20,554 bases of DNA from Cryomorphaceae bacterium (GTDB taxonomy: Bacteria > Bacteroidota > Bacteroidia > Flavobacteriales > Crocinitomicaceae): NCBI GenBank assembly GCA_021298235.1, contig JAJTDX010000030.1, positions 1 to 20,554 of the forward strand, read 5' to 3'. Made by a program: the position numbers and the translations under genes. Position 1 is the stretch's first letter. Each line of letters opens with the position of its first letter. Of this stretch, positions 5,100 to 6,713 are shown one piece after another. The notes beneath the pieces were generated by a model. That model saw nothing but the letters and a program-made list of their open reading frames with translations, was not told where the DNA came from and did not search any database.

Positions 5100-5459
5100 T
5101 TAAATTCCCGGCTCGGTGAAAAAATATTTGAACAAAAGCAATAGTCCAATAATGAGTGCGAATGCGCTCAGGATGAGCACTGCTCCTGCTGATATATCTT
5201 TAATGCGAGCAATTTTTGTGTTGTTTTCTGTTGAGTATAAGTTGCATAGCTCTTCAATGGCAGTATTGATTCCCTCCGCAGCGAGCACGCAACCGGAGGT
5301 TAATAAAACCAACAACCATTCGATTAGAGTAAACGAAACTAGAACTCCAAAAATGCAAATCGTAGCAAATAGAAATAAATGTATTTTGAAATTACGGCCC
5401 TGTAATAGGTGTTTGATGCCTTTAAAGGCAAACAGAAAACTTTGCAGAAAAGATGTCAT
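5100..5459 (-). CDS. dgkA: Undecaprenol/diacylglycerol kinase (DgkA family)
   Basis: A 119-residue integral membrane kinase. It has the N-terminal amphipathic SF..AF.GI segment (residues 7-15), NFKIH (23-27), two hydrophobic helices (about 28-60), the signature AAEGINTAIEEL (60-71) with the catalytic-type Glu 69, KDISAGAVL (87-95), and a third hydrophobic helix (about 94-112). Length and residue numbering match the classical DgkA (about 120 residues). In Bacteroidota and Firmicutes this type often phosphorylates undecaprenol to replenish the wall-lipid carrier; in Proteobacteria it recycles diacylglycerol. Sequence alone does not settle the substrate. The usual Asp two or three residues after the signature reads Asn (C-N-L), a mild deviation. 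It is divergent from metH and followed closely by the coiled-coil gene. Confidence 0.85.
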   Translation of the reverse strand: MTSFLQSFLFAFKGIKHLLQGRNFKIHLFLFATICIFGVLVSFTLIEWLLVLLTSGCVLAAEGINTAIEELCNLYSTENNTKIARIKDISAGAVLILSAFALIIGLLLLFKYFFTEPGI

Positions 5460-5515: not shown

Positions 5516-5523
5516 TAACTTTG
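5516..5523 (+). promoter_or_regulatory. -7 promoter element (TAACTTTG) for the riboswitch/metH transcript
   Basis: An exact TAnnTTTG match 20 bases before the first aptamer helix (5544), which places the transcript start just upstream of the SAM riboswitch. No convincing -33 TTG at 17-23 bases was found. Confidence 0.6.
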
Positions 5524-5543
5524 TTGCACGTTCATTCAGATAA

Positions 5544-5647
5544 ACTTATGAAGAAAGGTGGAGGGATCGGCCCTGTGAAACCTTGGCAACCCTCGACATG
5601 AGAAGGTGCCAAATCCAATTTCGAATGTATTTCGAAAAAAGATAAGT
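5544..5647 (+). promoter_or_regulatory. SAM-I (S-box) riboswitch aptamer
   Basis: All conserved S-box blocks are present in order. P1 is ACTTAT (5544-5549) with ATAAGT (5642-5647). The core is AGGGATCGGCCC then TGTGAAACC then TTGGCAACC (5562-5591). P3 is closed by GGTGCC (5605-5610), followed by AAATCC. P4 is TTTCGAA (5619-5625) with TTCGAAA (5631-5637). It binds S-adenosylmethionine and lies directly upstream of the split methionine synthase genes, so high SAM should lower their expression. Confidence 0.95.
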
Positions 5648-5659
5648 AATCGTCAATCG

Positions 5660-5698
5660 ACCTTTCTCATAGTTCTTTGAAACTTACTGCACTATGAG
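5660..5698 (+). promoter_or_regulatory. Riboswitch expression platform: hairpin masking the metH start codon
   Basis: CTCATAGT (5666-5673) and ACTATGAG (5691-5698) are exact reverse complements, giving an 8-bp stem that holds the AUG at 5694-5696 in its 3' strand, with a 17-nt loop. The upstream strand is shared: ACCTTTCTCAT (5660-5670) can also pair with ATGAGAAGGT (5598-5607), the 3' strand of aptamer helix P3, over 10 pairs with one bulged T. The two pairings exclude each other. The inferred logic is that SAM stabilises P3, frees 5660-5670 and lets it mask the AUG, while without SAM the strand is held by the aptamer and the AUG is open. No intrinsic terminator is seen in the leader. Confidence 0.7.
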
Positions 5699-6713
5699 TA
5701 ATATTCGTGATATATTAAAACGCCGTATCCTCGTGCTAGACGGAGGAATGGGAACCATGATTCAACCATACAATCTGGAGGAAGAGGATTTCCGTAGAAA
5801 TTGGTTTGAAGGTCATTCAAAACCACTGAAAGGAAACAACGATCTCTTATCCCTAACCCGTCCGGAAATTATTAAGGAAATTCACAGGCAATACCTTGAA
5901 GCCGGTGCGGATATTATCGAAACCAATACGTTTTCGGGTACCTGGATCGCTCAAGCGGATTATGAGCTGGAGAGCTCAGTGTATGACATTAATTTTCATG
6001 GTGCCAGATTGGCAAAACAAGTGGCAGAGGAATTTACAGCATTGAATCCCGATAAACCACGTTTTGTGGCAGGGTCAATTGGTCCAACCAATCGAACAGC
6101 ATCTATCTCACCGGACGTCAATGACCCAGGTTTTCGTGCTATCACATTCGATCAACTTGCGGATGCGTATCGTCAGCAGGTCGAGGCACTCATCGATGGA
6201 GGTGCGGATCTACTCCTTGTAGAAACCGTTTTCGACACCTTAAATGCCAAAGCTGCGTTATTTGCAATTGATGATGTTTTAAAGGAACGAGCACTTGAAC
6301 TCCCAATTATGGTTTCCGGCACGATTACAGACCAAAGTGGACGTACCCTTACAGGCCAAACGACAGAAGCTTTTCTGATTTCAGTTTCACATATGCCCTT
6401 GTTGTCTGTTGGCTTGAATTGTGCTCTTGGGGCTTCGATGATGCGACCGTATCTGCAGGTTCTAAATCGGCTTTCGCCGTTTGCTGTTAGCGCACATCCA
6501 AACGCTGGTTTGCCCAATGAATTTGGCAAATACGACGAAACGCCCGAAATGATGGCCGACCAGATCAAAGAATTTCTTGAGCTGGGATTAGTAAATATTA
6601 TTGGGGGCTGTTGTGGCACAACTCCGGACCATATCCGAAGTATAGCCGAGCTTGCCAGTAAGTATAGTCCGAGAAGTTATGCTGAACAATTAAATTCAGA
6701 GGATCATGAGTAA
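5694..6713 (+). CDS. metH: Methionine synthase, homocysteine S-methyltransferase subunit (split MetH, N-terminal part)
   Basis: A 339-residue TIM-barrel homocysteine-binding module equivalent to the first domain of cobalamin-dependent methionine synthase. Visible features: [10 protein letters not shown] (residues 15-24), [19 protein letters not shown], and the three zinc-binding cysteines, Cys 243 in GLNCALGA and Cys 306/Cys 307 in GGCCGTT. It activates homocysteine as a zinc thiolate for methyl transfer from the corrinoid on the partner subunit. It ends at the natural domain border, and the next gene starts 8 nt before its stop (ATGAGTAA overlap), so the two products are probably made in coupled fashion and act together. 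Controlled by the SAM-I riboswitch upstream; the start codon sits inside the predicted masking hairpin. No Shine-Dalgarno. Confidence 0.92.

Follow-up and report, generated by a model that had tools for sequence, protein, structure and literature searches.

A SAM-I riboswitch of a Bacteroidota metH gene that probably exchanges one strand between the aptamer P1 stem and the start codon

Classic S-box riboswitches of the Bacillus type are attenuators that alternate between a terminator and an antiterminator, the latter being built on the 3′ strand of the P1 stem of the aptamer. For the SAM-I riboswitch of the Xanthomonas campestris met operon, the part of the report considered here (PMC7270179) gives a model from in-line probing in which the Shine-Dalgarno (SD) sequence and the AUG are both masked with SAM, and the AUG is exposed without it. 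According to the same part, control is mainly exerted on translation, and the expression platform binds uncharged tRNA-fMet. In the portion of Barrick and Breaker (2007; PMC2258182) examined for this study, ‘translation attenuation’ is the commonest class outside Firmicutes, the decision tree does not predict masking structures, and no masking structure for Bacteroidetes is presented. Whole-riboswitch covariation models from 2026 (PMC13273304), which combine the RF00162 aptamer with its platform, took 132 sequences carrying predicted terminators as their seed, and according to the sections consulted the SAM aptamer shows no significant covariation with its platform. Bacteroidetes mRNAs naturally lack SD sequences, as stated in the consulted part of another study (PMC6847099), and therefore the mode of action of their translational riboswitches is a fair question.

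The locus described here lies on a contig of a Cryomorphaceae bacterium (JAJTDX010000030.1, positions 1 to 20,554), and this whole stretch of 20,554 nucleotides is called the window below. The sole match in the window at the Rfam gathering level is to RF00162 (SAM), with a score of 89.4 bits compared to a cut-off of 44.4 (E 1.9e-20) that extends across the full aptamer. Gene context also assigns this RNA to the SAM-I class, as evident by the metH gene located directly downstream and a promoter-like motif just upstream. The S-box aptamer proposed in an initial annotation, which had been made by a model from the sequence letters, is therefore real. The gene is split into two ORFs that overlap by 8 bases, and the first of them (5694-6713) aligns through residues 3-331 with positions 11-339 of NF007024, a methionine synthase model. 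A first metH ORF of approximately 330-345 codons is also present in several relatives. Upstream of metH is a divergent diacylglycerol kinase gene (PF01219; window 5100-5459, minus strand). Within the P1 5′ strand, an AUG opens a 17-codon ORF that runs through the aptamer (window 5548-5601); relatives that carry CUUAUAAAG have no such AUG in this strand.

Table 1. Positions of the metH leader features in the window, with the basis for each.
Feature	Position	Strand	Basis
Promoter-like TAnnTTTG (TAACTTTG)	5516..5523	+	motif frequency before P1 in leaders
SAM-I (S-box) aptamer	5543..5648	+	RF00162, 89.4 bits, model 1-108 of 108
Proposed anti-aptamer target: P1 5′ strand, J1/2, start of P2 5′ strand	5543..5559	+	minimum-energy fold, co-variation
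P1 5′ strand	5544..5549	+	pairs with 5642-5647 in SAM-bound form
P3 3′ strand, initially proposed anti-aptamer partner	5598..5607	+	complementary, not conserved
P1 3′ strand	5642..5647	+	partner of 5544-5549
Putative switching strand D	5660..5674	+	pairs with 5543-5559 (ON form)
5′ arm of start-codon hairpin (OFF form)	5666..5673	+	inside strand D
3′ arm of start-codon hairpin, includes AUG	5691..5698	+	exact complement of 5666-5673
metH start codon AUG, A at -3	5694..5696	+	ORF, NF007024 match, relatives' match starts
metH first part, 339 aa	5694..6713	+	NF007024 positions 11-339, 530.3 bits
metH second part, 889 aa	6706..9375	+	NF007024 positions 341-1229, 1538.7 bits

Relatives of this leader were collected by using the first part of MetH as the query against genome contigs and keeping the best 80 of 150 relatives, which by their titles are mainly Crocinitomicaceae, Fluviicola, and other Flavobacteriales or Bacteroidota MAGs. 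Their matches bear on the metH start: most of the 80 loci begin to match at query residues 1-4, and some at 8 or 9. An S-box is located shortly upstream of metH in 66 of the best 80 loci; the other 14 carry no S-box as judged by a sequence pattern rather than by the covariance model. Including the window, this yielded 67 leaders, and 50 after removal of those with >93% similarity. Two of these (L048 and L058) carry strong intrinsic terminators between P1 and metH and were left out of the tests on variable bases and sequence classes (48 leaders). The permutation and shuffle tests additionally leave out L004, whose leader is 97 nt long (47 of 50). In the permutation tests, partners are swapped between leaders 20,000 times.

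In 47 of 50 leaders, the 60 nt that precede P1 contain a TAnnTTTG motif, which we take to be the Bacteroidota -7 box, as compared to 178 of 5000 random 60-nt windows drawn from the same loci. Moreover, 36 of the 47 leaders having the motif place it 19-23 nt before P1. Given this position and frequency, the metH leader RNA probably begins just 5′ of the aptamer, a few bases after the motif. At the other end, P1 is separated from the metH AUG by 46 nt. The longest run of T nucleotides in this interval is 3 and no GGAGG-like stretch is visible by eye before the AUG, and thus the window has neither an intrinsic terminator between aptamer and AUG nor a visible SD sequence, as the initial annotation had stated. 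By what can be seen, this leader is a SAM-I riboswitch by its aptamer, while being neither an S-box transcription attenuator nor an RNA that masks an SD sequence.

What the region between aptamer and gene does contain is a sequence complementary to the start site. Nucleotides 5691-5698 (ACTATGAG) are the exact reverse complement of 5666-5673 (CTCATAGT), such that 8 base-pairs can enclose the AUG, just as annotated. When the leader is shuffled by mononucleotides, a perfect complement between leader and start region that is this long or longer arises in 149 of 20,000 cases, and the pairing of the start region in the window has a p value of 0.020 relative to dinucleotide-shuffled leaders. The longer segment that includes 5666-5673, which we call strand D, can form 15 Watson-Crick pairs with nucleotides 5543-5559, interrupted by two single bulges (5547 and 5552), with a p value of 0.015 for pairing of the P1 5′ strand relative to dinucleotide-shuffled leaders. 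Because 5666-5673 lies inside D, the two helices share a strand and are mutually exclusive, and one of them covers the start site, which is the arrangement of a sequestor and an antisequestor.

Folding of nucleotides 5542-5711 without constraint yields a minimum-energy structure of -43.7 kcal/mol that contains the helix between D and the P1 5′ strand and in which the AUG is paired with a probability of 0.13. When P1 is forced to form, this probability rises to 1.00, and the formation of P1 costs 3.9 kcal/mol without ligand in folds that leave aside the pseudoknot, the kink-turn, and the ligand itself. SAM binding could pay this cost. These predicted values agree with the earlier suggestion that the AUG is masked in the ligand-bound form and open in the ligand-free form. 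The effect is uneven when all 50 leaders are treated in the same way: the gain in AUG pairing on forcing P1 exceeds 0.2 in 19 leaders, pairing falls in two, and the energy difference has a median of 0.67 kcal/mol, with many free folds that do not favor the helix formed by D.

The initial annotation had likewise proposed mutually exclusive structures, and its AUG helix and shared strand are retained here, but it assigned the competing pairing to the 3′ strand of P3 instead of the 5′ strand of P1. In the window, nucleotides 5598-5607 and 5660-5670 can indeed form ten pairs with one bulged U, whose duplex energy of -12.0 is near the -12.8 of the P1 5′ strand, and P3 duplexes of -9.8 to -10.5 are also found in L001, L005, L027, L051, and L067. 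However, this pairing is borderline in the window relative to dinucleotide-shuffled leaders (p 0.055), beats the shuffles at 0.05 in 5 of 47 leaders, a count close to that of a control window (4 of 47), and does not co-vary (z +0.3 and +0.4, the latter among the 47 leaders with -5.53 kcal/mol for own and -5.63 kcal/mol for permuted partners). In the whole leader of the window, the ensemble energy with forced pairing is -40.4 kcal/mol for the P3 partner and -48.3 kcal/mol for 5547-5559, making the P3 pairing less favorable by 7.9 kcal/mol. We consider it hardly credible that D binds P3 in the SAM-free form, and P3 was rejected as the anti-aptamer on the basis of its missing co-variation, control-like shuffles, and worse energy.

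The partner favored here, the P1 5′ strand, behaves differently in the same 47 metH leaders. Its pairing with the downstream region averages -11.50 for own and -9.03 for permuted partners (z -9.8), with none of 20,000 permutations reaching the observed value, and it beats dinucleotide shuffles at 0.05 in 44 of 47 leaders, compared to 4 of 47 for the control window. Two variable bases in P1 and J1/2 reveal how the complementarity is maintained. Among 48 leaders, the first is present as G-C in 26, A-U in 13, and U-A in three, and is unpaired in six, whereas the second is A-U in 33, C-G in four, and U-A in two, and is unpaired in nine. All paired cases are therefore Watson-Crick, with three pair types at each base, in the pairing register chosen by the duplex program. 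For example, aptamers with CUUAUGAAG are followed downstream by CUUCAUA (L045), aptamers with CUUAUAAAG are followed by CUUUAUA (L026 and L037), and the downstream partners of UACUUAUAC and UUAUUUAG are GUAUAAGUA (L031) and CUAAAUAA (L019), respectively. The energy of the helix formed by D is preserved in relatives despite these sequence changes, although in L049, L051, L053, and L064 just 6-7 pairs with the P2 5′ strand remain.

The same relationship emerges when the class of the aptamer is disregarded. With 15-nt probes, a preference of at least 3.2 kcal/mol for the GA probe is seen in the downstream regions of all 26 GA leaders, and it is absent from 11 of 13 AA leaders. This energy-difference test took the place of a confusion matrix with 10-nt probes, which was correct for 20 of 26 GA, three of four AC, two of three TT, three of 13 AA, and neither of two TA leaders; part of the misclassification arises because G also pairs with U. 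The best tree requires at least 14 class changes, many of them on weak branches. On well-supported branches there are two pairs of independent class switches, both with the right direction in most pairings, which are too few for significance. Taken together, the comparative sequence data strongly support the P1 5′ strand over the P3 3′ strand as the likely anti-aptamer partner.

Pairing at the start site is also evident from co-variation. For the region from -6 to +15, pairing with the downstream part of the leader averages -9.03 for own and -6.96 for permuted partners among the 47 leaders (z -6.8, 0 of 20,000), while five coding windows that begin at +18, +39, +60, +90, and +120 are flat (z -1.1 to +0.6). 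Both signals persist when the set is collapsed to 13 leaders, with 1 of 20,000 permutations for the P1 5′ strand and 24 of 20,000 for the start. In individual leaders the start pairing is less uniform, beating dinucleotide shuffles at 0.05 in 18 of 47 (4 of 47 for the control window), and in 14 of 50 leaders the AUG is paired more than in shuffles (at 0.05) when the downstream region is taken by itself.

The manner of masking also appears to vary. In the window and in L001, L006, L011, L014, and L016, strand D itself can cover the AUG. In L003, L015, L043, and L045, it is codons 2-5 that are covered, with matching changes, by a strand that overlaps D or lies immediately upstream of it, and in L049, L051, L053, and L064 an upstream stretch pairs inside codons 2-5 and hardly with the AUG. 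Compensating helices at the start include ATATCCCTC/GAGGGATAT (L045), TGTCCTTCAT/ATGAAGGACA (L043), CACTGTT/AACAGTG (L051), and GCGCTGTT/AATAGCGC (L053). Almost no start pairing (-1.6 to -3.2 kcal/mol) is found in L009, L026, and L046, and the pairing in L019 does not touch the AUG. Compensating changes are thus present for both helices in the leader sets, while single relatives are not always convincing. The predicted masking of the start therefore has good support in the group as a whole and in the window (p 0.020), but not in every member. Many leaders, including L002, L006, L017, and L022, carry a small hairpin between P1 and D (e.g. GTAC-ATTC-GTAC in L002 and GTGAG-TTTTT-CTCAC in L017). 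A search for mimicry, in which a start region would resemble its own P1 5′ strand more than those of other leaders, found none (z 0.4).

A broader view was obtained from the class Bacteroidia, where a SAM-I match is present in 286 of 395 sampled genomes. We read the 110 best-scoring loci among the matches listed, with G001's own left out, and therefore weaker aptamers are not represented. An ORF follows in 108 of the 110, and 56 were terminator-less by an automatic filter. Removal by eye of 13 that were terminator-like or had a misplaced start left 43, of which 31 have leaders of 25-135 nt, and these collapse at 85% to 27. By short motifs in their translations, as opposed to family searches, these 27 precede 17 metH, four metX-like, three cysteine-desulfurase-like, two PLP-enzyme, and one other gene. 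Two loci, L105, which passed the terminator filter, and L113, which is in the unfiltered set only, were read in the wrong orientation, and neither is among the 27.

In these 27 terminator-less leaders, both pairings co-vary (P1 5′ strand z -6.7, start z -4.8, each 0 of 20,000) and controls do not (z -0.7 and +1.3). The two sets are not fully independent, since L100 and L104 resemble leaders of the close set. Both pairings are also apparent in the ten non-metH leaders taken by themselves (11 and 27 of 20,000). Relative to shuffles at 0.05, the P1 5′ strand is significant in 18 of 27 leaders and the start in five of 27; when manual removal and collapse are omitted (20-260 nt), the corresponding numbers are 24 and 10 of 54, with controls at two and three of 54. 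The P1 3′ strand was ruled out as a partner of D in the terminator-less leaders, where it exhibits no co-variation (z 0.1).

The complementarity to the start could conceivably have arisen through composition or shared ancestry, in which case a pyrimidine-rich D would face a purine-rich start without regulatory role and only the helix with the P1 5′ strand would matter. The class-wide leaders with terminators illustrate this concern, as all windows except the P1 3′ strand, controls included, give z values of -2.0 to -3.0 in the permutation test. This result is uninformative because its controls are significant, and it indicates that composition can fake some signal. The start pairing is, moreover, individually weak in most relatives. 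However, controls are flat where the start is at z -6.8 in the metH set and -4.8 in the class-wide terminator-less set, and codons 2-5 carry matching changes in several lineages. We therefore judge this explanation to be quite improbable.

An alternative that deserves somewhat more weight, although we still regard it as unlikely, is that the switch acts mainly on transcription, which would be terminated by Rho or at a non-canonical hairpin, with masking of the start as a consequence or an aid. By the automatic filter, 31 of the 58 metH SAM-I leaders among the 110 best-scoring loci class-wide carry an intrinsic terminator. The terminators of L048 and L058 in the close set indicate a change of platform type at one and the same gene. 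Furthermore, blocked translation often exposes mRNA to Rho. On the other hand, T runs before the AUG do not exceed 3 in the window, and co-variation with the leader is seen in terminator-less leaders for the start region but not for windows further into the coding region.

The aptamer, both helices, their overlap, their co-variation, and the prediction that the AUG opens and closes, all computed here, can be combined into the following mechanism. Without SAM, strand D would hold nucleotides 5543-5559, P1 and P2 would come apart, and the AUG would be open (‘ON’ state). With SAM, P1 and P2 would stay closed and D would be released, permitting its 3′ part to close over nucleotides 5691-5698 and to block initiation by the ribosome (‘OFF’ state). 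The target would be the start codon, or codons 2-5 in a number of relatives, there being no visible SD sequence to hide. In this scheme, we infer that the aptamer binds SAM, that expression falls in response, and that translation is affected primarily, rather than mRNA decay or Rho-dependent termination. It seems quite likely that this SAM-I riboswitch shuts off metH translation when SAM is plentiful by exchange of strand D and masking of the AUG. An OFF switch acting on the start codon itself had been foreseen in the initial annotation, and the comparative data support its start pairing well but not its P3 partner.

With somewhat less confidence, we lean towards the view that terminator-less SAM-I riboswitches of Bacteroidia may share one platform principle suited to translation that does without an SD sequence, wherein a strand would pair by turns with the 5′ strand of P1 and P2 and with the start codon and first codons, its sequence drifting and both partners following. 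Genes under this principle would include metH, metX-like, cysteine-desulfurase-like, and PLP-enzyme genes, and in evolution it would alternate with ordinary terminators at the same gene.

A second type of SAM-I locus was also encountered, in which an ORF of 19-49 codons begins 8-10 nt after P1 (7 of 9 loci found by pattern: L087, L088, L089, L091, L165, L190, and L194). Several of these short ORFs are rich in Cys or Met near the end, as with MMCCCCCCIC (L087), HCCCC (L091), MCCFCMA (L190), and MCMCFGMYMF (L194), while that of L088 has one Cys only. In L090 and L092, a long ORF that is metX-like by sequence begins where the short ORFs do. The short ORFs possibly encode a cysteine or methionine leader peptide.

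A full-text literature search, with subscription journals mostly outside its reach, yielded no paper that we recognized as describing this arrangement. As far as this search extends, the exchange of the P1 5′ strand and a target without an SD sequence appear to be new, whereas masking of the AUG together with an SD sequence is already known for SAM-I. The initial annotation held that most S-box platforms use a terminator or hide an SD sequence, and to this must be added the Xanthomonas precedent for AUG masking, as presented in the part of PMC7270179 considered. Like that RNA, the metH leader joins a SAM-I aptamer to probable control of translation with an AUG that is predicted to be masked with SAM. 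Unlike the Xanthomonas RNA, which in the part considered has separate anti-SD and anti-AUG stretches, the window has no visible SD sequence, one strand would do both jobs, and the masking strand competes for the P1 5′ strand (PMC7270179).

The comparison with the classic S-box attenuator is similarly mixed. The aptamer and the OFF logic through P1 are the same, and terminators are found at metH itself in relatives L048, L058, L108, and L115, yet the window has no terminator and uses the 5′ rather than the 3′ strand of P1. From what the consulted portion of PMC2258182 describes, the Barrick and Breaker decision tree would place terminator-less SAM-I RNAs with a distant start in the translation attenuation class. 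Co-variation now offers an answer to how such riboswitches might act in this phylum, with the start codon and first codons as the target of the switch and the P1 5′ strand as the element exchanged, and the metH leader provides a case in which start-codon accessibility in Bacteroidota can be tested by mutation. In contrast to the whole-riboswitch models, as far as the consulted sections of PMC13273304 describe them, co-variation between aptamer and platform is found in this clade and in the terminator-less leaders of the class, and it is the splitting of the data by clade and by terminator that brings it out.
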